Assembly: GCA_035578175.1 (NCBI GenBank)
Contig: JAQMRL010000003.1
Span: 110,132,319-110,196,318, forward strand
From: Catonia carolina
Lineage: Eukaryota; Arthropoda; Insecta; Hemiptera; Achilidae
Length of the DNA: 64,000 bases
Reading direction: 5' to 3'
Position 1 is the stretch's first letter; each line of letters starts with the position of its first letter. The notes beneath the pieces are model-generated. The model had not been told where the DNA came from. It saw only the letters and a list, made by a program, of their open reading frames with translations, and ran no database searches. The position numbers and the translations under genes were made by a program. Below, piece by piece: positions 17,695 to 61,372 of this stretch.

Positions 17695-18324
17695 TGTCAC
17701 CACTACCCCTTCTAATTAATCGTTTACTGTGTTGCCGGCCTTCAATAGTTCTCCCAGCCTTTGTTGGTGTGGTAGGACCTTTTGCGGCATACCGACAAAC
17801 CTTTCGGCTGCGCACCGACAGAGGGCTTTGTCATCAAGGCCGAGCCAGTAACCGCCTCCTACCACAGCGCTTTCGGTGACTATAAAAAGAGCTTTCCACT
17901 AAGCCGAGAGATTCAATTCCGATCAAGACACAGAGAGATTTAATTCCAATCCAGGCAGCATCGACAAGACGTTCACCACCGCACACGGCTGCCGGACTCC
18001 AGCGAGGACTAATTGACGACTTCGCAAGAGAGAAGATGATGCTTCCGCTCGCCGACCCGCCACCATAAGCCGTCGACCAGACCGTCATCGCCCTCTGATG
18101 CGAACGATGCCCACAGTGGTCCCTCGAGCAAGCCCTACGCCCACTGGATCCGACGAAGCAGCTATCGACGCACTACTGCGAGGGAAAAAGATGATGTCTC
18201 CACTGGACGACGACACGCCATGACGACTATGACCGACGCTTCCCATCAAGAACACCGCTTAAACGGCCCTTTTCAGGGCTACCAAACAAATAGGCTCGTC
18301 ACTTAATGTCGCCATCTGGTGACA
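17695..18324 (+). mobile_element. solo LTR, family C, copy 1 (histone-type 3' end)
   Basis: 630 bp beginning TGTCACC and ending GGTGACA, flanked by the 4-bp duplication ATGG (17691-17694 and 18325-18328). TATA box CTATAAAAAG at 17880; about 380 nt downstream is the stem-loop GGCCCTTTTCAGGGCT followed by ACCA. No AATAAA follows before the end. No internal retroelement genes adjoin it, so it is a solo LTR, probably of a Gypsy-like element judging by ends and duplication length. Confidence 0.8.
18265..18284 (+). terminator. histone-mRNA-type 3' stem-loop in the LTR
   Basis: 6-bp stem with a 4-nt TTTC loop and ACCA 3' flank, preceded by AAAC. This is the consensus bound by SLBP in replication-dependent histone mRNAs. 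The outermost pair here is G-T; other copies have a perfect stem. Confidence 0.75.
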
Positions 18325-41092: not shown

Positions 41093-41660
41093 TTTCGCCG
41101 ACCAGGGCCGACGGCACGTGGCAAAACCTTGTCTGTAAAATTGGTGGCCCTGAAAAGGGCCGTAGTTGACAGTTGGAAGCGGCGAGCCGGCGTAGTAGAA
41201 GCGGAGCCCGAAGAGTGACAGCTCGTCTACCGGGTTCAGGCCTAGTCTTCCCTCAGCGGCAGTTGGTTCCCCACTGCAGCGTGGCAGTGGTGGCCCCCAG
41301 AGCCCCGCAGTGTCGGGTCGGTGTAGGCCGTCTGCTGGTAGCGCGGCCGAGGCAGCTCTCTCCGGGCCGTTGAAGGCTGACTGGTACGGGAATGTAGTGT
41401 CCGCCACCGGTAGACCAGGGATGGTACGTCCGGTCTCGGCTGGGCTCTTCTTCTGGCTGGAGCTCTTCTTTCTTGTTCTTCTCCGGTTGAGAGTTCACTG
41501 AAGAGTGCCTCTCGTGGGTGAAAACGCTCTCTTAAATACCTCTCCGTTGAGTCAACAAGGTGGTGGGGAGAGGCTGTAGGCTCTGCACGTCTGTAGCACT
41601 CCGCGCGGCAGGCAGTGTGACTGTGTGTAGACGCTAATATTGGAAGGGCAAGCGGCGACA
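41093..41660 (-). mobile_element. solo LTR, family C, subfamily 2
   Basis: 568 bp with perfect 4-bp duplication ATAC (41089-41092 and 41661-41664). In the - reading it starts TGTCGCCGCTTG and ends GGTCGGCGAAA (a CA end with one change). TATA-like GGTATTTAAGAG at 41531-41540 and a perfect histone-type stem-loop at 41146-41161. GC-rich; the open frames inside (up to 139 codons) overlap in several frames and look non-coding. The body differs from the other family C copies. Confidence 0.78.
41142..41161 (-). terminator. histone-mRNA-type stem-loop in the LTR
   Basis: GGCCCTTTTCAGGGCCACCA on the - strand: perfect 6-bp stem, TTTC loop, ACCA flank, then a purine-rich ACAGACAAGG 8-17 nt downstream, where a histone downstream element would lie. 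Confidence 0.75.
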
Positions 41661-41836: not shown

Positions 41837-42337
41837 TGTCACCAGATGGCGATATTGAGTGGCGAGTTAAAACCTTTAATTTTTGGTGGCCCTGAAAAGG
41901 GCCATTTAAGTGGTGGTTGTCTTGATGGGAAGCGTTGGTCATAGTCGTGGCGGTTGAAGAGCTGGGCGATATGGCATGTTGTCGTCAAGCAAAGACGTCA
42001 TCTTCTTCCCTCGCAGTAATGCGTCAATGGCTGCTTTGTCGCGTCCGGTGGGCGTAAGGCTCGGTCGAGGGACCACTCCCTCAATCCTCCATGCTCCATT
42101 CTGACGCGAGCAATGCCCATCATCGCTCGCGTCAGCAGGTGATGACGGTCCAGTCGATGGCTTATGGTGACGGGTCGGCGAGTGGAAGCATCATCTTCTC
42201 TCTTGCGGGGTCGTCGATTAGTCTTCGCTGGAGTCCGGTAGCCGTGTTGCCAATAGTGGATGTCTTGTCTGCTGTCTGGATCAGAATTTAATTTTCCCTG
42301 TTGAGTGCAGCGCTCTTTATATAGTTGCTGAGAGCAC
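41837..42337 (-). mobile_element. solo LTR, family C, copy 3, 5'-truncated
   Basis: In the - reading it ends CTGGTGACA at 41837 and is recognisable up to just upstream of its TATA box (42316-42323); the U3 part is missing. Stem-loop GGCCCTTTTCAGGGCC at 41888-41903 with ACCA flank. Confidence 0.75.
41884..41903 (-). terminator. histone-mRNA-type stem-loop in the LTR
   Basis: Perfect 6-bp stem, TTTC loop and ACCA flank on the - strand, same position in the element as in the other copies. Confidence 0.72.
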
Positions 42338-42368: not shown

Positions 42369-42422
42369 TATGTAGGTTGGGAGTAACAGCTGATTGATCA
42401 GCTGTTACTCCCAACCTACATA
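42369..42422. repeat. perfect 25-bp palindrome (hairpin)
   Basis: Arms 42369-42393 and 42398-42422 are exact reverse complements around a 4-nt TTGA loop (TGTAGGTTGGGAGTAACAGC and its complement). It lies just beyond the truncated LTR. Confidence 0.9.
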
Positions 42423-47147: not shown

Positions 47148-47518
47148 TTTGTTCCTCCCACTTTTTCTTGTCAATGTAAATAATTAGGAAGATGTACTGG
47201 CTATTAACACATTCAGCTCTGTGGCTAGAATCACCGGTGCTTCGCTATGCCGACCCGCCATTACAGTGAAAATATACCATGCCGCTTAAGGCGGCATCAG
47301 GCCACGGAAAAAATCTTACTTATTTGCTCATCTGCTCACCGGCTCAATATAGTACAGTATTATACGTGTTTGTTGTTTCTACGAAATTTATCACATCTGC
47401 GATGTGATATAAACTACGATGGTTATCCAGAAAATAACCTCCGTTTTGAAATAAAAAGTAAACGAGTGAAGATACAAAAACTATATTATATACATATTAA
47501 AACTACAGTTTTTCTCTA

Positions 47519-47930
47519 TTTTTTGACATAGTCGCCATACAGATTCAAGCACGTGTCGTACCTTGGAACAGTCTTTGAAATACTCTCTGCATAAAAATCT
47601 GCCGCTTGTGAATGTAGCCAACCATTCACGGCGTTTTGAAGCTCTTCGTCATTGGCAAACCGCTGAGATGCAAGCCACCGCTTCATGTTTGTGAACAGGT
47701 GAAAGTCACTAGGAGCCAAGTCCGGGCTGTATGGGGGATGATCGAAAATGTTCCATTTAAACTTGGTTAAAAGTTCATTTGTTCTTCGAGCTGTATGAGG
47801 GCGAGCGTTGTCATGCACAAACACAACACCACGTGTCAGAAGGCCACGACGCTTGTTTTGGATCGATCTTCTTAGTCTGTTTAAAGTTTCACAGTAGACA
47901 GCAGAAGAAGTAGGAAGCATTGGTGTGTGC
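47519..47930 (-). pseudogene. mariner transposase C-terminal half (left arm)
   Basis: YCETLNRLRRSIQNKRRGLL, FVHDNARPHTARRTNELL, HPPYSPDLAPSDFHLF, KRWLASQRFANDEELQNAVN, ending LYGDYVKK and stop at 47519. The Asp pair in HDN and PSD is 34 residues apart, as in DD34D mariner proteins. It lacks the HTH and first Asp. Confidence 0.85.
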
Positions 47931-47949
47931 CTTCTGACACGTGGTGTTG

Positions 47950-48257
47950 TGTTTGTGCATGACAACGCTCGCCCTCATACAGCTTGAAGAACAAATGAAC
48001 TTTTCGCCAAGTTTAAATGGGACATTTTTGATCATCCCCCATACAGCCCGGACTTGGCTCCTAGTGACTTTCACCTGTTCCCGAACATGAAGCGGTGGCT
48101 TGCATCTCAGCGGTTCGCCAATGACGAAGAGCTTCAAAACGCCGTGAATGGTTGGCTATATTCACAGGCGGCAGATTTTTATGCAGAGAGTATTTCAAAA
48201 ACTGTTCCAAGGTACGACAAGTGCTTGAATCTGTTTGGCAACTATGTCGAAAAATAG
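47950..48257 (+). pseudogene. mariner transposase C-terminal half (right arm)
   Basis: Mirror copy of the left arm: VHDNARPHT region with a frameshift near 47985, then HPPYSPDLAPSDFHLFPNM, NAVNGWLYSQAADFYAESIS, ending LFGNYVEK and TAG at 48255. Confidence 0.82.
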
Positions 48258-48358
48258 AGAAAAACTGTAGTTTTAATATGTATATATAATAAAGTTTTTG
48301 TATCTTCACTCGTTTACTTTTTATTTCAAAATGGAGGTTATTTTCTGGATAACCCTCG

Positions 48359-50578: not shown

Positions 50579-51899
50579 CAAGGGGGTACCCAAAAGAAAC
50601 CGGAATTATTTTTTAAAACTATTTATTTTTAATTTTTTTACAAAAGAACCTTATCCCCTTTAAAATACTCTCCATTACAACTAATACATTTGTCCCACCG
50701 GTGCTTCCACTGTTCAAAACATTTTTTGTACTCCTCTTCAGTGATGGCTGCCAGCTCATCCGTCGATTTTTTCTTGACATCATCAACGTTGTTAAATCGG
50801 AGACCTTTCATGCCCCTTTTCATGCGTGGGAACAAGAAAAAATCACACGGAGCTAGATCGGGTGAGTACGGTGCGTGTGGTAGCAAAACCATGCCGTTTT
50901 TCGCCAAAAACTGGGTAACCGAGATTGCCGTGTGTGCAGGCGCGTTGTCGTGGTGGAAAAACCAGTCCCCTGTCTGCCACAAATTAGATCTTTTACGACG
51001 AATGCTGTTTCGCAGTCTTCTTAACACTTCAAGATAAAAAGCTTGATTACCGTCTGGCCTGGTGGAACGAACTCTGAATGGACAATTCCCCTCACATCAA
51101 AAAAACAAATCAGCATTGTTTTGATGTTCGATCTGACTTGACGACTTTTTTTGGTCGGGGTGATAATGAAGTCTTCCATTGACTGGATTGTTGTTTGGTT
51201 TCTGGGTCGTACCCATAGCACCAAGACTCGTCACCCGTAATGATCTTTGACATGAAATCTGGATCAGTTTCAAGCTGTTGTTTCAAATCACTACACGTTT
51301 CAATTCGACGTTCCTTTTGAGTGTCTGTCAGAACCCGAGGCACAAACTTGGTAGCGACTCTTTTCATTGTCAAGTCTTCTGTTAAAATGCGTTGGACTGA
51401 GCTCCAAGATAACCCACTAACCTGTGATATTTGGTCAATGGTCTGTCGTCGGTCTGTTCGTACAATTTCTTTCACTTTCACAACATTTTCGTCTGTTCGG
51501 GAAGTCGACGGTCGTCCAGAACGAGGTTTGTTCTCAATCGACATGTCGCCATTTTTAAAGCGCAAAAACCACTCGTACACTTGGGTTTTTCCAATAGCGT
51601 CGTCTTTGTAAGCTGTGTTCAACATTACAACTGTTTCCGCGGCGTTTTTACCGAGCAAGAAGCAAAATTTCACAGCCGCACGTTGTTCATTAAAACTTGC
51701 CATCATGAAAAACGACACGAGCACAAAACAGCACTAGCGAGAACAATCACTGCACGAGAACAGAACAAGCTAGATCAACGAACAAAATGGCATTGAACTG
51801 GCAATGAGTAGCGCTACAAGCAGCCTAGTGGCGGGAATTTGTACTGCACAAGCTCCGCCCACAGCAGAGCTATTCCGGATACTTTTGGGTACCCCCTCG
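50579..51899 (-). mobile_element. full-length mariner transposon
   Basis: 1321 bp between TA dinucleotides (50577-50578 and 51900-51901). Inverted repeats are AGGGGGTACCCAAAAGAAAC and, at the other end, ATCCGGAATAGCTC preceded by CGAGGGGGTACCCAAAAGT. The best-preserved mariner of the window. Confidence 0.9.
50638..51705 (-). pseudogene. mariner transposase (DD34D), lightly damaged
   Basis: Starts MASFNEQRAAVKFCFLLGKN at 51703; first HTH with KTQVYEWFLRFKNGD; linker GRPSTSRTDENV; second HTH QISQVSGLSWSSVQRILTED; first Asp in KIITGDESW; second in HHDNAPAHT; third in YSPDLAPCDFFLFPRMK, 34 residues after the second; C-terminus ends GDKVLL. About 345 codons as in typical mariners. At least two frame breaks (near 51200 and 51030) make it inactive as it stands. 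Confidence 0.88.
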
Positions 51900-52110: not shown

Positions 52111-52891
52111 CTCACACAACTTTCTCACACAACTTTCTCTTGCCAATGCAAATAATTTACAATATAATTTAACATTAGTAATAAAATATTAGAAATAAAC
52201 AAAAACTAACCTCAAAAACATAACCTTATTTTAATCATGAGTGAATGACGCAAAATGACAATAGAACTCAGTTTGGCTTAAAAATACGGAAAATCACGCT
52301 TTCACGCTAAACTAGGCTCTGTAGAGAAAAATGCTCTAAACAAAAGTTGTAGATCTTTTAATTTTCTATAACTTTTATTATATACACTTTTGTCGTAAAA
52401 TGCATACTAAGACCGAAATGTTAAAAAAATCGATTTTTCTCACGTTTTCGTGAGAAAAAAAACAGAAAATCGCTAATTACCGCTAAACTAAGCGTTATAC
52501 AAAAAAATGTTTGAAACAGAAGTTGTAGGTTTTTAAATTCTCTACAACTTTTATTATATAAGTTTTTGCGCTAAAATTTATATTAAAGCTGTAATCTTAA
52601 AAAAACAACGTTTTTACGTGAAAACAGCCTCACCGAGAATTTCAGCAAACATGGCGCCTACCCTATCTTGTAGAGAATAAAAAATTGAGTAAAATAGGCG
52701 ATTTTAAAAAAAATCGTAGGACCAGTTTTTGAGAAAATCGCAAAAAACTGAAAAATTATACGAATAAACTACTACTTCCGGTTGACCGATCTTGATGAAA
52801 ATGTTCGTGTCGCGTCCGGTAGTGGTATGTAACTTAAGTTTCAAGTTTCAAGTTCGTACGATGTTCCGTTCTTGAGATATTCTGTTCACAC

Positions 52892-52941
<50 letters not shown>

Positions 52942-53137
52942 GCGCGCGCGCACACACACACACACACGCACGCGCACGCACACACACAAAACGCACACAG
53001 ACCAATCGCTAAAAACATGTTTGTGTGGGTTCAGGGGGTCTGAAAACGTATAGATCCGGTGAAAACTCGATTTCGAAAAATCGACATGAAAACAATACTT
53101 TCCTTTCTATATATTCATATAGGCAAGAGAAAGTAAA
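52111..53137 (-). mobile_element. family A element, inverted, long (CA)n
   Basis: Outer end slightly truncated and duplicated (CTCACACAACTTTCTCACAC); otherwise complete to GGCAAGAGAAAGT. CA/CG-rich tract of about 105 bp at 52887-52990. Confidence 0.82.
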
Positions 53138-53444
53138 AAGTAACATATAAATATAAGTGGGGCCACCCAAAAAAAAAAAACTTCTGGGGCCGCCATTGAT
53201 TCGTCGTCAAAGAGCAATTTGCATCTATCGCACAGTTTAGAATCACCCTGTATTTTACCTTAAATTTCAATCTTTACAGCGGTTTATGAAGGCTATGAAT
53301 AAGAATGTGTAAAAAATTGGAATTGGCTCAATTCCTGGAACGAAGAGTGATGGAATGTTTTATTTGAAGAATAAAGAAAGATATTGGCTTCTTACTCAAC
53401 AACTGTTTTACATACACTACAGGGTGTAACAAAAAGAAAATTTA

Positions 53445-53980
53445 GTGTGAAACACTCATAAGACTTTTTCTTATACAGTGCCTCTCTGTATAGAGAGCCT
53501 AGTTTAGCGTGAAAGAGTGATTTTCCGTATTACCTATTAAGCCAAACTAATGTTGGTTTTAATTTTGCATCATTCACTCATGATTGACCCACTGGGTTGG
53601 TCTAGATGTAAAGTTGTCACCAAAATCAGCTGTTTACCAGCTGATTTTGGGAAACGAATGTTCCTGGTTCAATCCTAGTAAAGGTAGTTACTATTATACG
53701 AATTTGAATACTAAACACCGGTGAAATTTGATAGTTGGGGTTCAATTAACCATACCCTCTCAGGAATGGTCGGCCTGGGTCTGTACAATATTACACCACA
53801 TTCACACGTCATACAAATCATCATCTCATTGTGTCATCGGGTTGCTTATTGTTCTAAATTGAACATATTGCAACGTACACCGTTAGGGATAAAAATAAAA
53901 GAAAAAAATTACTAATGTTAGGTTTTATTGCTCATTATTTACATTAGCTAGAGAAAGTTGTGTGAGTGTTTCACGGCAGA
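53445..53980 (+). mobile_element. family A fragment interrupted by a SINE
   Basis: 3' third of family A: CTAGTTTAGCGTGAAAGAGT, then GCATCATTCACTCATGATT, a D SINE, then TAATGTTAGGTTTTATTGCT and GTGTGAGTGTTTCACGGCAG. Confidence 0.7.
53587..53908 (+). mobile_element. tRNA-derived SINE (family D), copy 2
   Basis: ACCCACTGGGTTGGTCTAGA head, GGTTCAATCC B-box-like sequence, the shared body CATACCCTCTCAGGAATGGT, and an A-rich tail. Inserted in a family A copy. Confidence 0.8.
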
Positions 53981-54002
53981 TTTTTTTAATTTTTAAATTC
54001 TT

Positions 54003-54630
54003 CTTACTTTGACTTGTCTTATATGAATACGAGATTATAATCATGTAGATATTTCAAAATCGAGTTTTCACCGAATGTACACGTTTTCAGACCCCCTAAA
54101 CCAAAAAACGTGTTTTTTGCGATTGGTTTGTGTGTGTGAACAAAATATCTCAAAAACGGAATAATGTATGAAATTGAAACTTCGAACGTAAGTTAGGTAC
54201 CGTAAGAGAACCAGACACGAATATTTTCATCAAAATCGGTTAACCGGAAGTAGTAGTTTATTCGTGTAATATTTTACTATTTTGAAATTTTCTTTTTTTT
54301 AATATTGGCCATTTACTACATTTTTATTCTCTACAAAACAGGCCGGCCCGTGGCGTAGTGGTTAGCGCAACTGGTTTCTACGCCAGGGTTCCGGGTTCGA
54401 TTTCCGGCCCGGTCTGGCATTTTTTCATCGCTCATCTTCACCGATCATCCTTCTCACCGTCTGCATTAGCAGTAATTGCTAAACAGTCGGACGTTAAACC
54501 AAAAAAAAAATCTACAAGACACATTAAGCGTCTTACCATGTCTGCCGAAAGTCTCGGGGAGACTGTGCTCTCTTGGTAAAAAATTATTTGTGTTTTTAAG
54601 ATTGCGGCTTTAATATTCATTTTGTATGTT
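54003..54630 (+). mobile_element. family A element, diverged, interrupted by a SINE
   Basis: Family A 5' half (TTCACCGAATGTACACGTTT, ATCAAAATCGGTTAACCGGA) and part of the middle after the SINE (GGGGAGACTGTGCTC, TTAAGATTGCGGCTTTAATA). Confidence 0.72.
54341..54510 (+). mobile_element. tRNA-derived SINE (family J), copy 3, complete
   Basis: GCGTAGTGGTTAGCGCAACT (A box), GGTTCGATTTCC (B box), tail GTCGGACGTTAAACC plus A10. Target duplication TCTACAAAACA (54330-54340) and TCTACAAGACA (54511-54521), with the site inside family A. Confidence 0.83.
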
Positions 54631-54635
54631 TGAAT

Positions 54636-55030
54636 CCTGTTCATAACAGACAGGTGGAGGGTCAAATTATTTACACTTAATCTGTTCGTTGCAGGGCTAA
54701 AATAAATTTTTCTGTTTCTTATCACATGGACAGCCAATTATATGACTGAATCATTTAAGAACAGAAGAGGTAGAGGTGTAGAAGACACTAATCAGAGTTA
54801 TCTCCTCTGAAAGTAATGAATTTCATTATACAGCCAGACCCTGTGGTGAGTGAAGCGAAGGTGTCATTTGCAGAGTGGAAAATATATGCTTTTCAGAAGG
54901 CCCGGCATGCTGATAAGCGTACTTCTCCACTCAGTGAGGAAGGCAAGTAAACCACCTCACTCCTCGTTTTTACTTAGTAAAACCTCTACAGGTTCAAATC
55001 AGCCTTTCGGCTGATGACCTAAACAAACAA
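54636..55030 (+). mobile_element. family B retroposon, copy 5
   Basis: Complete copy from TCATAACAGACAGGTGGAGG to GATGACCTAAACAAACAA. Confidence 0.8.
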
Positions 55031-55375
55031 CATGTTTGGATTCTCCTGTGGTAAGGCCTTTTTGGGCCGACGGTCCGTGACATTTAGCCCGTTCTGCCAC
55101 CCTATTGTTAAGCCACTGCGCAACAGGTTTACAAGCCTATTTTATTGAAGGGGTGGTGAGGAGGAGTAGGGGGAGAAAAGTTTTTTTTTAAATAACATTA
55201 TTTGTATGTAATCAGTTTTTAAAAATAAACTATAAACAAATCTTTTGAATTTACAAATCACAAGTTGAGGTCTCATTATCCTGAGTACCTCTCATTATAT
55301 CAATTATTCATATGTTAAAAGAGAAAATTACTACGTACAAAGATATTTACATTTTACAATATGAAATACTTTTCA

Positions 55376-56700
55376 CTATAATTTTATATACATATAAACT
55401 CTTTCAGACAAGTTCAAAACATGGTAACGTTTCAGGCGCCTAACTTCTTCTGCATTGTTTAGAATATTTATGGCTAATTCGTTTTCGTGACTTTCAAGTC
55501 TTGCATGATATTTTCTATTAAAACGCCTGACCTCGTTTATTACATCGGAAGGTTGCAATGATGTATTTCTGCATGCCTTGTAAACCATGGTGCCCTTGTT
55601 ATAGCCTGAAGAACCTTATTCTGGAACCTTTGAATTACCTCTATGTTACTTCTGCTGGTAGTTCCCCAAAGTTGAGCGCCGCACAACCAAACTGGTTTAA
55701 AAGTAATATTTTGTAAAGGAGCAACTTATTCTCAAGAGAGAGTGAAGAGTTTCCACCAATCAGCCAGTACATCCTTCTGTATTTTCGATTTAATTCATTC
55801 CTCTTCATTCTCACATGGGTTTTCCAAGTTAACCTCCTGTCAAGATGCATACCCAGGTACTTCACAACTTCACTTTGTAGTAAATCAACACCTCCAAGTT
55901 TTACTAGCGGATATGTATTTCTCCGCATTGTACAGTAGAACCTCTTTAATCCGGCATGTTTGGGACTCGAAGCTTGCCGGATTAAAGGAAATTCCGGACT
56001 ATGGAGGTTATTTATAAAAATACAGGAGTCGTATAAAAAATAACACAATTTGCACAAGAAACTTTTACTGTATGTAGCCTATTTATTATTTAAACATGGG
56101 TTATTTAAACAATATATATCAATATTTAAGTACAGGAGAAATATTAAAATGGATTTTTTAAGTACAGTAGACTACATGATGAAATAAATTTGAATACAGT
56201 ATGAAATACAGTACAGTACTGTACTATTCGTGGTTTTTAGCAACAGCCACCGGTAGATGGCTGGAAAAAAGATCTAATATCTACTTGCTTCTTACGATTA
56301 GTATTTTTTTTATTTAAAAAATCATTTTTTATTATATGCAAGTTCATAACTTCGGCCATACTGTGTTGTTCATTTGACTCAGCAAATTTTACAAACTTGT
56401 AAAAAAGCGTACTGAGTTTACAAACTCAGAGCGTGACGCTTTGTGGCTCTTGAGTGTCGGCGGTAGCTGTCGGGTTGCTCACTTTACAATGTTCATTGTG
56501 AAGGCAATTCTATAATTTTTGTCTATTGCCGTTGATGCCGGATTATAGACAATTCCGGACTATAGAATGCCGGATTATGGAGGTTTTACTGTAAATGTAA
56601 CATGATGCGATTTTGCAGTATTGATTTTCACTCTACATTTTTAAAGCCATGATTGTATTTGGTCTAAACATTCCTGAAGTTTGAAGCTACTATAGGATCT
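55376..56700 (-). pseudogene. Jockey-like LINE reverse transcriptase C-terminus, split by a pogo MITE
   Basis: On the - strand: LQECLDQIQSWL, KINTAKSHHVTF (56590-56690), then the MITE, then MRRNTYPLVKLGGVDLLQSE, VVKYLGMHLDRRLTWKTHVR, SSLSLENKLLLYKILL, and in another frame EVRRFNRKYHARLESHENEL and RRLKRYHVLNLS. Frame breaks near 55650. Five-prime part and endonuclease absent. Confidence 0.85.
55933..56591. mobile_element. pogo/Tigger-type MITE
   Basis: CAGTAGAACCTCTTTAATCC at 55933 and GGATTATGGAGGTTTTACTG to 56591, flanked by TA on both sides; a second internal CCGGATTA motif pair follows. Typical pogo/Tigger ends. No transposase; inserted inside the LINE reading frame. Confidence 0.88.
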
Positions 56701-56710
56701 CCACTTTTAG

Positions 56711-57285
56711 GAGAAAAGTGAAAATAATTTTTCTGCCACCCTATAATGGTATGCTAAAGAAGTTGTGATGGTAGCAATTAGTTAGTCGGTATTTGTTAGT
56801 TGAGCCGTGACCAAAAGATGTCTTATAATTACCGTGAAATAGAATCACTGTCGCCTTCTTAACCGTTTCGCGCCGCGCCGACACATTCACGCCCATCCTT
56901 AGAAACCCTCTCCTCTTCACCCCTCACGACACTTTAACTTCACACCCCCTCCAAGTGTCATTTGCCTGTGATTCAGAACGGTAACTAGACGATTTATTGC
57001 ATCTATTCATGTCTATTAGCGTCTAATGTTATTAACAAATAGATTAGTTCTTTCTTTATTTGAGTAACCGCCATCGTTCCAAATAAATTAACTTAAATTA
57101 CTACACTAAATGCCATCTTCACAAGCTGTTATTTCTTAGTCTATCTAGGCCTATATCTTAAATTAACACATTTCTTTAAAGATTCTATGTGAACGACTCA
57201 ACCTATTAGCGAACTGTTGGTATTGAATGAACAGTGAGTTTAGCCTGAGCAAGTCAAGCACAGATAACGTTTTTATCTTAAATCA
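56711..57285. other. no recognised feature
   Basis: Non-repetitive DNA as far as I can see; no coding signal. Confidence 0.45.
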
Positions 57286-57864
57286 TGTCACCGGATGGCG
57301 ACATTAAATGGCAAACCTTATTCATTTGGTGGCCCTGAAAAGGGCCGTTTAAGTGGTGGTCGTCTTGGAGAGGCGTCGGTCGTACTCGTCGTGGCGGTCG
57401 AGGAGCTGGACGACACGGTATGTCGTCGTCCAGCGGAGACATTCTCTTCTTCCCCCGCAGTAGTGCGTCGATGGCTGCTTCGTCGGGTCCATTGGGCGCA
57501 AGGCTCGATCGAGGGACCGCTGTGGGCATCGCTCGTGTCAGCGGGCGTCATCTTCTCTCTTGCGGGGTCGTCGATTAGTCCTCGCTGGAGTCCGGCAGCC
57601 GTGTGCCATGGTGGACGTCTTGTCGTTGTCTGGATCGAAGTGAATCCCTCAGTCTTCATCGGAAATGAATCGCTCGGCTCAGTGCAGCGCTCTTTATATA
57701 GTCACCGAGAGCGCTGTGGTAGAGAGCGGCTACTGGCTTAGCCTTGATGACAAAGGCCACTGCGGTGCGTTGCCGAAAGGTTTGTCGGTATGCCGACAAA
57801 GGCCGGAAGAAGTATTGAAACCGGCAACACAGTAAATGATTTATTAGAAGGGGTAGCGGTGACA
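57286..57864 (-). mobile_element. solo LTR, family C, copy 2
   Basis: 579 bp, TGTCACC to GGTGACA; flanks ATCA (57282-57285) and ATTA (57865-57868) form a 4-bp duplication with one change. TATATAAA on the - strand at 57693-57700, perfect stem-loop at 57331-57346. About 85% similar to 17695-18324 throughout. The 113- and 148-codon open frames lie in overlapping frames on both strands and are not conserved as proteins. Confidence 0.82.
57327..57346 (-). terminator. histone-mRNA-type stem-loop in the LTR
   Basis: GGCCCTTTTCAGGGCCACCA on the - strand, preceded by TTAAAC and followed by a purine-rich GAATAAGG about 6-13 nt downstream. Confidence 0.77.
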
Positions 57865-58005
57865 ATTAGATAATATAGAAAAGAAGAGAATACTATCTGA
57901 AGACTTACACAATGCTTTTTTCTACTTTTACACAAATATTCTACACAATAAATGTAAAAACTTATATAAAATAAAATAGTTTATTTTTATTTCTATACTC
58001 ATAAA

Positions 58006-58399
58006 TTCTGCCCATAACAGACAGGTGTAGTGTCAAATTATTTACATTCAATCTGTTCGTTGCAGGGCTAAAATAAATAGTTCTATTTCTTATCACATGG
58101 TCAGCCAAAATGACTGAATCATTTAAGAACATAAGAGGTAGAGGTGTAAAAGACACTAATAAAAATTATCTTCTCTGAAAATTATGAATTTCATTATACA
58201 ATCAGACCCTATGGTGAATGAAATGAAGGTATCATTCGCAGGGTGGAAAGTAGATGCTTTTCAGAGGGCACGGCATGCTGATAAGCGTACTTTTTCATTT
58301 AGTGAGAAAGGTAAAGGTAAACCACCTCACTCCTCGTTTTACTTAGTAATGCCTCTAGAGATTCAAACCAGCCTTTCGGCTGGTGACCTAACCAACAAC
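58006..58399 (+). mobile_element. family B retroposon, copy 6
   Basis: Complete copy with 9-bp duplication ACTCATAAA (57997-58005 and 58400-58408). The frame MNFIIQSDPMVNEMKVSFAG is open for 85 codons. Confidence 0.82.
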
Positions 58400-58411
58400 A
58401 CTCATAAAGTA

Positions 58412-58772
58412 TTGTCCATAACAGGCAGGTGGAGAGGTTAAATTATTTGAATTTGCCTTCCTCACTGAATGGAAAAGTACGCTTATCAGCATAGCCCTCT
58501 GAAAAGCACATATTTTCCACTCTGTAAAGCACTGCAACTGTCTTCACTTCATTCACCACAGGCTCTGCCTGTACATATAATGAAATTCATTACTTCCAGA
58601 GGAGATAACTCTGATTAGTATCTTTTACACCTCTACCTCTTCTGTTCTTAAATGATTCAGTCATTTAATTGGCTGACCATGTGATAAAAAACAGAACTAT
58701 TTATTCTAGCCCTGCAACTAACAGATTGAGTGTAAATAATTTGACATTCCACCTGTCTGTTATGGGCAAGTA
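58412..58772 (-). mobile_element. family B fold-back fragment
   Basis: About 40 bp of a + strand family B 5' end (CCATAACAGGCAGGTGGAGA) run straight into an inverted copy lacking its 3' end (GCCTTCCTCACTGAATGGAA to CTGTCTGTTATGGGCAA). Confidence 0.72.
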
Positions 58773-59367
58773 CACACATTACGGATTAAAAAAATTAATA
58801 CAGTATTAATAACTACAATAGGTATCTCGTACTATCATAAATTTTGAAATTTTGCACTTATATAAAAATATTCTAAGTTGATTTACACAATTGCTCTCTC
58901 ATTTTCTTTCCTTCTCTTAATAAGATGCCAAATGAATTTAATTATCCCAATTTAAAGAGCGCACTTTCTCTCTAATAAATTTAAACAAAATATCAACAAA
59001 CAAAGAACTTAAATAATTATCCGCTAATTAACTAAATTAAGATGTGACAAAAGACAAAATTACTTTCGGCTTCACCTATTTTCCTTCGGCACACGCCCTT
59101 CCTAGTCAAGTTAGCCTAAATTGGATTATTGCCAAATAAGGAGTCCAATAATCCATTAATAACACAAAGAGAATGAATTCTCTAAAAGAGGAACATATCG
59201 AGGGGTTAATGTCAAACAACACTATCTACAAAAACCTATTTTTTTAATATTTTTCAGGAGAGCGAAAAACTACTTCTAATCTGATTATCTTCCTATTATC
59301 TCAGTTATTTATACATGTAGTCAACTATAAATTTAGTGTAATTTAATTTATTTCTTAATGTTAAATG
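58773..59367. other. AT-rich DNA, no gene seen
   Basis: No recognised feature. Confidence 0.45.
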
Positions 59368-59764
59368 TGCCCATAACGGGGGCAGATGGAGTGTTAAATT
59401 AATTGCACTCGATCTGTTGGTTTCAGGGCTACAAAATAAATCTGTTTCTTATCATATAGTCAGCCAATTATGTCTGAACTATTTAAGAACAAAAGAGGTA
59501 GAGGTGTAAAAGACACTACTCAGAGTTATCTCTCCTGAGAGTAATAAATTTCACTATACAACCAGACCCTGTGATGAATGAAGTGAAGGTCTCATTTGCA
59601 GGGTGGAAAGTGGGTGCTTTTCGGAGGGCGTAACTAGCTGATAAGCATACTCTTTGAACTTGGTGAGGAAGGCATAGTAAACTACCTCACTCCTCATTTT
59701 TACTTAGTAAAACCTCTAGAGGTTCAAACCAGCCTTCTGGCTGTTGACCTAAACAACAACAACA
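59368..59764 (+). mobile_element. family B retroposon, copy 8
   Basis: Complete, with diverged 5' end (CATAACGGGGGCAGATGGAG) and (AAC)n tail. Confidence 0.78.
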
Positions 59765-59999
59765 ATGGTAAATAGTAAATAAATGGTGATGGCTCTCCTG
59801 AAAAATTTGGTTTTTGTACATAGTGTTGTTTGACATTAACCCCTCGATATGAGAATGGTAAACTGCAATGTTTTTCTTGTTGTTGTTTAGGTCATCAGCC
59901 GAAAGACTGTTTTGAACTCTAGATGGTATACTAAGTATAAAACAAGAAGTGAGACAGTTTACAATTGCCTTCATCACTAAGTGGAAAAGTAATGCTTGA

Positions 60000-61372
60000 G
60001 TCGTAGCTCCGTGTAGTTGGAAGGAATGCAGTGCGTTGTTATAGTAGTGGGAGAATGAATGAGTTAGTAGCGTTTCACAGCTGTTGCATTTGTAGTGGTA
60101 GCGTGTACTAACTAGACTAAAAAAAATCTGGTGTGAAACACTCACACAACTTTCTCTTGCCAATGCAAATAATTTACAATATAATTTAACATTAGTAATA
60201 AAATATTAGAAATAAACAAAAAACTAACCTCAATAAACATAACCTTATTTTAATCATGAGTGAATAACGCAAAATGACAATCGAACTCAGTTTGGCTTAA
60301 AAATACGGAAAATCACGCTTTCACGCTAAACTAGGCTCTGTAGAGAAAAATGCTATAAACAAAAGTTGTAGATCTTTTAATTTTCTATAAATTTAATTAT
60401 ATACACTTTTGTCGTAAAATGCATACTAAGACCGAAATGTTAAAAAAAATCGATTTTTCACACCTTTTCGTGAGAAAAAAACAGAAAATCGCAAATTACC
60501 GCTAAACTAAGCGTTATACAAAAAAATGTTTGAAACAGAAGTTGTTGGTTTTTAAATTCTCTACAACTTTTATTATATAAGTTTTTGCGCTAAAATTTAT
60601 ATTAAAGCCGTAATCTTAAAAAAACAACCTTTTTACGTGAAAACAGCCTCACCGAGAATTTCAGCAAACATGGCGCCTACCCTATCTTGTAGAGAATAAA
60701 AAATTGAGTAAAATAGGCGATTTTAAAAAAAATCGTAGGACCAGTTTTTGAGAAAATCGCAAAAAACTGAAAAATTATACGAATAAACTACTACTTCCGG
60801 TTGACCGATTTTGATGAAAATGTTCGTGTCTCGTCCGGTAGTGGCATGTAACTTAAGTTTCAAGTTTCAAGTTCGTACGATGTTCCGTTCTTGAGATATT
60901 CTGTTGACACACAGACACACACACTGACACACAGACACACACACAGACACACACACAGACCAATCGCTAAAAACATGTTTTTTGGGTTCAGAGGGTCTGA
61001 AAACGTATAGATCCGGTGAAAACTCGATTTCTTAAAATCGACATGAAAACAATACTTTCCTTCCTATATATTCATATAGGCAAGAGAAAGTAAAAATATT
61101 CTTATCATCCGGCGCATTAATTTAAGAAATACCGACTGGATTATTAACTTGGTCGGATTCATAATATTTCACTTACCGATTTAAATCAAAATATGTAAAT
61201 AAATAAATGTAATAAATATACAAACAAATAGCCTATGTTAAATACGGGAAGTTTGAAAAGGAATGTTTTGTATCAGAGTAATAGAAGAATCGTTCTCCCA
61301 GCATGCGTCACTCATTCATTATACCCCACCCGTACCCTTCACCCCGCAACTGCACGGAGCTTAGAACCGCAC
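60000..61372 (-). mobile_element. family E MITE-like element, copy 2, carrying family A
   Basis: Pieces 60000-60120 and 61098-61372 match 40502-40890 in inverted order (GTCGTAGCTCCGTGTAGTTG, CATCCGGCGCATTAATTTAA, CCGCAACTGCACGGAGCTTA). Confidence 0.75.
60127..61092 (-). mobile_element. family A element, inverted, inside E
   Basis: TCTGGTGTGAAACACTCACA to GGCAAGAGAAAGT, full length. The left flank is GACT plus A8 and the right flank A5 plus TATTC, against an empty site GACT-A7-TATTC in the other E copy. Insertion in an A/T run with little or no duplication fits Helentron-type insertion. Confidence 0.85.

Follow-up and report, generated by a model that had tools for sequence, protein, structure and literature searches.

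To our knowledge, the RNAs of known LTR elements, like retroelement RNAs, are polyadenylated. The alternative route used by replication-dependent histone mRNAs requires a stem-loop and a downstream element, with cleavage between the two, according to two studies (PMC2781718, PMC9756948), and PMC9709290 and PMC2781718 describe histone mRNAs as the only known targets of SLBP. The nearest precedent in a literature search, and the only transposon with a histone hairpin that it returned, is Tm1-HH, a transposable element family of root-knot nematodes. This is a DNA transposon of the Mutator/foldback kind, non-autonomous and with duplications of 9 bp; the authors of that study suggest acquisition of a host fragment and leave the function of the hairpin open (PMC3169594). 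The search returned no LTR element with a histone hairpin in the sources within its reach; subscription journals and preprints mostly lay outside it, so an earlier description is possible.

The DNA described here, a 64-kb stretch from Catonia carolina (the window, taken at its full length), contains LTRs that carry the histone-type stem-loop near their 3′ ends. Their sequences suggest, with a probability of about 0.8, that Ty3/gypsy-type LTR retrotransposons use the host replication-dependent histone 3′-end pathway instead of polyadenylation.

Histone-type hairpins in the LTRs of the window

The initial annotation described three solo LTRs, copies A, B and C of a family termed F1 below. This holds for A and C, which are complete, but not for B, which lacks its 5′ part and with it TGTCACC. 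Absent from that annotation were a fourth hairpin, in an LTR of a second family (copy D, family F2), and the AAGGTT motif of B, C and D. The features are as follows.

17695..18324, + strand: LTR copy A (family F1), complete solo LTR, TGTCACC...GGTGACA, flanks ATGG/ATGG
17881..17886, + strand: copy A TATA box, at LTR position 187
18265..18280, + strand: copy A histone-type stem-loop GGCCCTTTTCAGGGCT, one base change, a G.U pair closing the stem base
41093..41660, − strand: LTR copy D (second family, F2), solo LTR, TGTCGCC...GGCGAAA, flanks ATAC/ATAC
41125..41130, − strand: copy D AAGGTT, candidate histone downstream element
41146..41161, − strand: copy D histone-type stem-loop, above the Rfam Histone3 gathering score
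41532..41538, − strand: copy D TATTTAA, a TATA-type box
41837..42336, − strand: LTR copy B (family F1), 5′-truncated directly above its own TATA box
41871..41876, − strand: copy B AAGGTT, candidate U7 site (histone downstream element)
41888..41903, − strand: copy B histone-type stem-loop
42316..42323, − strand: copy B TATA box
57286..57864, − strand: LTR copy C (family F1), complete solo LTR, TGTCACC...GGTGACA, flanks ATCA/ATTA
57314..57319, − strand: copy C AAGGTT, candidate histone downstream element
57331..57346, − strand: copy C histone-type stem-loop
57693..57700, − strand: copy C TATA box

The LTRs in the 64-kb window are solo only, with no pair. Target duplications are perfect over 4 bp for A and D and agree at three of four bases for C, which bears out the one clear and one imperfect duplication first reported, A having ATGG/ATGG and C ATCA/ATTA; the truncation of B leaves none to compare, and in D the terminal CA is replaced by AA. 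The layout proposed at the outset, a TATA box followed some 400 nt on by the stem-loop and then by about 40 nt to the LTR end, is corrected by the distances measured for A, B and C: 384, 420 and 354 nt from TATA box to hairpin, and 44, 51 and 45 nt from stem end to LTR end. The stem-loop said to be shared by the three copies is GGCCCTTTTCAGGGCC in B and C, but in A it is GGCCCTTTTCAGGGCT, with one change that places a G.U pair at the base.

Copies C and D are distant relatives. Their global alignment scores 119.5, against 13.1 (sd 14.0) for 300 shuffles, and the longest exact stretch common to both is 23 nt, ACGGCCCTTTTCAGGGCCACCAA, against at most 14 nt in shuffles. The LTR tip and the TATA region are also similar in this alignment. 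AAGGTTT lies downstream of the hairpin in both copies, a match that was recorded before any host histone gene had been compared.

The hairpin is far too frequent to be a chance inverted repeat, an explanation ruled out by two comparisons. With up to two mismatches, GGCCCTTTTCAGGGCC matches four times in the window (0.00 expected from 100 shuffles), and the exact 21-mer of hairpin plus ACCAA matches 4052 times in the 1.47-Gb genome (2027 forward, 2025 reverse, host histone genes among them), against no match for the reversed control; some of the sites listed cluster with alternating strands. The Rfam Histone3 model (RF00032; a 6-bp stem, a 4-nt loop and an ACCA flank) gives 36.6 bits for D, above its gathering cut-off of 34 bits, and 32.9, 32.7 and 24.6 bits for C, B and A, all below it. 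Every hairpin in the window is predicted to form, whether on its own, within a longer stem or next to a second helix, and the folding-energy z-scores are modest (−1.1 to −2.0).

In copy C, an open frame runs through the hairpin. A coding reason for the hairpin was considered and rejected: changes over the whole frame are spread evenly over the codon positions (10, 12 and 13), and the D LTR has no ATG. A protein search with the copy C frame found nothing. By eye, only synonymous differences separate A, B and C in a stretch reading AAIDALLRGKK in the putative R region, and a peptide may start inside the F1 LTR. The U3 of copy C (positions 65–84; window 57781–57800) holds an inverted repeat, TTTGTCGGCATACCGACAAA, a possible factor-binding site.

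A perfect palindrome with 26-bp arms and a 2-bp spacer (42369–42422) stands 32 bp beyond the truncated end of copy B; a foldback insertion may account for it, or a rearrangement that left a scar. Mariner-type remnants with HTH_48 and DDE_3 matches occupy 47482–48291 and 51113–51733, one of them within a 363-bp, 95% inverted duplication. Several dispersed copies of a multi-part repeat, which has internal units about 175 bp long and belongs among repeat families D1–D20, lie within 1529–36225 and 52216–61097.

Host histone genes and a candidate downstream element

One locus that contains the 21-mer, L062, is a histone repeat with H2B, H2A, H3 and H1 identified by Pfam and H4 by its own sequence, Pfam giving a histone-fold match only. 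Each of these five genes is followed by GGCCCTTTTCAGGGCC, a 16-mer identical to the LTR hairpin, and then by ACCAAA (H2A, H2B, H4), ACAAAA (H3) or GCCAAA (H1). The early reading of hairpin and flank as the histone mRNA 3′ signal is thus upheld by the host's own H1, H2A, H2B, H3 and H4 genes, which end in the same 16-mer, most with ACCA. Viral contigs searched with hairpin patterns gave no match. A single GTDB match sits within a bacterial reading frame and is regarded as a chance hit.

In the host, xAGGTT starts 14–17 nt past the stem in 9 of 10 hairpins (L062 together with L063, a locus assigned by its flanks only). This conservation makes AGGTT the natural candidate for the U7-binding element, and it is presumably the histone downstream element. 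The same motif follows the LTR hairpins. A strict count among 30 sampled LTR loci finds AGGTT within 27 nt after the last hairpin in 24 (22 of 28 distinct), as against 172 of 13500 control windows (1.3%), and none in the remaining six. AAGGTT starts 11–15 nt past the stem in copies B, C and D; in copy A, the downstream element is degenerate, with no AAGGTT match. The distance from stem to hexamer, measured, like those just given for the host and for copies B, C and D, with a looser pattern fixed after inspection of the data, is mostly 9–12 nt in F1, 15 nt in F2 and 18 nt in a third family, F3, so that F1 spacing falls below that of the host genes.

Some LTR subfamilies carry histone-type hairpins in tandem, as seen at 13 loci examined (L029, L030, L031, L037, L042, L045, L046, L052, L055, L057, L059, L060 and L072). 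Of eight F1-type arrays, seven contain a variant hairpin further upstream that is itself followed, after 9 nt, by AGGTT; six (L029, L030, L031, L052, L057 and L060) share the variant GGTCCTTCTCAGGACC, with pair 3 changed on both sides (GGTCCT...AGGACC), and some perfect hairpins in between have no AGGTT. In F2-type arrays, AGGTT follows the last hairpin only in four of five, and L046 has none. The idea that AAGGTT stands solely after the last hairpin of an array is wrong for F1-type arrays and holds for four of five F2-type arrays. A compensated GGTCCTTTTCAGGACC occurs in L046 and L072.

The comparison of stem columns between copies advocated in the initial annotation has a mixed outcome. Compensated hairpins are found in the arrays, but most changes are not compensatory: single stem changes retain pairing in 9 cases and break it in 18, a count that leaves out L001, L002, L044, L050, L064, L070 and L071 (unrelated, duplicate or partner copies) and that, by requiring an ACCAA-like flank, did not register the F1-type array hairpins with compensated GGTCCT...AGGACC stems. 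Among 30 F1 copies (aligned without L030 and L031), conservation of hairpin plus ACCAA is 0.961, which ranks only 35th of 557 windows; old F1 copies thus show little special constraint on the hairpin.

LTR families and autonomous elements

A genome search with copy C gave at least 44 matches, with the best 40 of 5187 candidates scored and 30 loci returned. Among 25 F1 copies with both ends reached (L028, L030, L031, L014 and L019 being excluded), the flanking duplication is a perfect 4 bp in 16, has one mismatch in 7 and is worse in 2; flanks paired from different loci match perfectly over 4 bp in 6 of 600 cases. Most of these copies are hence solo LTRs that remain from insertions made by an integrase. 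Sampling by the 21-mer instead, 30 loci drawn from the first 100 of the 4052 sites are 28 distinct ones, since L043/L044 and L049/L050 overlap. Twenty-eight of the 30 can be assigned to F1, F2 or F3, with matches equivalent to 239 or more identical bases; for L055 and L042 the figures are 49 and 35, too low for assignment to any LTR family. F3 cannot be aligned to the families of the window.

Three of four same-strand candidate LTR pairs are real: two F1 mini-elements (L070 and L071) and an F3 element (L064–L067). The fourth, L068/L069, consists of two separate LTRs that are 84.9% alike. The F3 element (C1:22.095-22.102 Mb) has identical 1.13-kb LTRs, target duplications, a PBS, a PPT and the gypsy order of coding domains (gag, protease, RT, RNase H, integrase). 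Downstream of its integrase piece, an open frame of at least 169 codons (L065:1-507, − strand) has no Pfam match at 0.001; viral contigs held no relative of its RT piece. The mini-elements (C1:6.52 Mb and C1:9.84 Mb) are young, with LTRs of about 640 bp, interiors of 186–259 bp, a PBS and a PPT, and both carry the histone signals in their LTRs. The search for full-length copies that had been recommended thus yielded a gag-pol element of F3 and mini-elements of F1 with paired LTRs, but no autonomous F1 element: gag-pol is shown for F3 only, and the loci fetched included no autonomous F1 or F2 copy, F1 being represented by mini-elements and solo LTRs only.

The hairpin-bearing units are LTR retroelements. 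Full-length members without the hairpin were looked for and not found, the autonomous F3 element carrying both signals. Nor was a histone-derived repeat without a retroelement found when this was sought: paired LTRs, PBS, PPT and gag-pol were present instead, and the paired-LTR elements with gag-pol domains rule out such a repeat.

Proposed formation of the RNA 3′ end and relation to known systems

Transcription of these elements would start below the LTR TATA box. In the 3′ LTR, the nascent RNA would fold the SLBP-type stem-loop, U7 snRNP would pair with AAGGTT 9–18 nt further on, and cleavage would occur between stem-loop and AAGGTT, right after ACCA. Because cleavage would fall just there, R would span from cap site to ACCA, a length of some 340 nt for copy C and some 840 nt for the autonomous family. 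U5 would be the short remainder of about 40–105 nt, and the genomic RNA would have no poly(A) tail. We infer the pairing of U7 with AAGGTT, the action of SLBP and U7, the cap site and the exact RNA end from sequence, and an S-phase-linked abundance of the element RNA from known histone mRNA biology. Since the same hairpin lies in the 5′ and the 3′ LTR, only one of the two can serve: the 5′ copy of the signal would somehow have to be passed over and the 3′ copy used. Retroviruses with poly(A) signals in R likewise must ignore the 5′ copy.

The DNA directly shows both signals, that they are identical with those of the host histone genes, where in the LTR they lie, and the retroelement anatomy. 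Other than by use of the pathway, it is difficult to account for the presence of both signals, in the host order and at near-host spacing, in LTR families that cannot otherwise be aligned. The odds are somewhat better than even that two or perhaps three Ty3/gypsy lineages, at least two of them separate, have given up polyadenylation, their genomic RNA ending through the histone SLBP/U7 pathway.

Ordinary polyadenylation is an unlikely alternative, in which weak signals of the ATTAAA or AATAAG type in U5 or the flank would end the RNA, and the histone signals would trim some transcripts or regulate them through nuclear handling or S-phase decay. Dual use of this kind is plausible, because on loss of SLBP the histone genes of Drosophila use cryptic downstream poly(A) sites, according to PMC2781718. 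As originally stated, the interval from stem to LTR end is free of AATAAA in A, B and C, but in copy B it contains ATTAAA, and one or other of AATAAA and ATTAAA occurs within 44 nt past the stem at 5 of the 30 sampled loci; AATAAGG follows the stem in many F1 copies. Against this, neither AATAAA nor ATTAAA occurs in the three young LTRs (F3, L070 and L071) or in D, though the lack of AATAAA is uninformative, since only 0.09–0.48 such signals are expected in the young LTRs. U5 is also short, with 44–108 nt after the stem, and for the 3′ LTR a site beyond it falls outside the element.

A hairpin taken from a histone gene and then kept for strand transfer, packaging or dimerisation, with no part in 3′ processing, is quite improbable. 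The hairpin does lie near the putative R/U5 border, the place of strand transfer, and array hairpins without AGGTT after them would suit such a task. However, this leaves unexplained the AGGTT that is common to five host histone gene types and present in 22 of 28 distinct LTR loci, as well as ACCAA and the exact primary sequence in families that are otherwise unalignable. Finally, a non-retroviral repeat derived from a histone gene, or a chance inverted repeat, deserves almost no credence: host histone genes do have the same 16-mer, but against the former stand the TG...CA ends, the 4-bp duplications (perfect in 16 of 25 copies), the PBS and PPT, the pairing of LTRs and the gag-pol domains, and against the latter the 4052 matches versus 0 for the reversed pattern.

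If 3′ ends are indeed made by the histone pathway, a retrotransposon would be a natural non-histone client of SLBP processing, and the rule, as we know it, that retroelement RNA is polyadenylated would be broken. The host histone signal would form the 3′ end of R, a previously undescribed way to define the end of a retroelement RNA. Element RNA would be linked to S phase, with histone locus bodies as a probable further link, and this would suggest a way in which retrotransposition is coupled directly to DNA replication. The strategy would be a successful one, given thousands of hairpin copies with young elements included, and such elements would escape RNA-seq that selects for poly(A).

The elements share with Ty3/gypsy (Metaviridae-type) retrotransposons their TG...CA LTRs, 4-bp duplications, tRNA-type PBS and G-rich PPT, and, in F3, gypsy-order domains; they differ in a 3′ LTR that carries the histone stem-loop and downstream element. 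The mini-elements L070 and L071, with their paired LTRs, short interior, PBS and PPT, we take to resemble TRIM-type miniature LTR elements, except that their LTRs carry histone 3′ signals. Tm1-HH is likewise a transposable element bearing a histone hairpin, but it has long TIRs and 9-bp duplications in place of the 7-bp inverted termini and 4-bp duplications of the LTRs here. The signals themselves are those of replication-dependent histone 3′ ends (RF00032 plus HDE), with an identical stem-loop, an AGGTT-type element and mostly an ACCA flank (ACAA in host H3, GCCA in H1). In contrast to the histone genes, the LTRs have no histone coding sequence, and the signal lies in the LTR and hence at both ends of the element.
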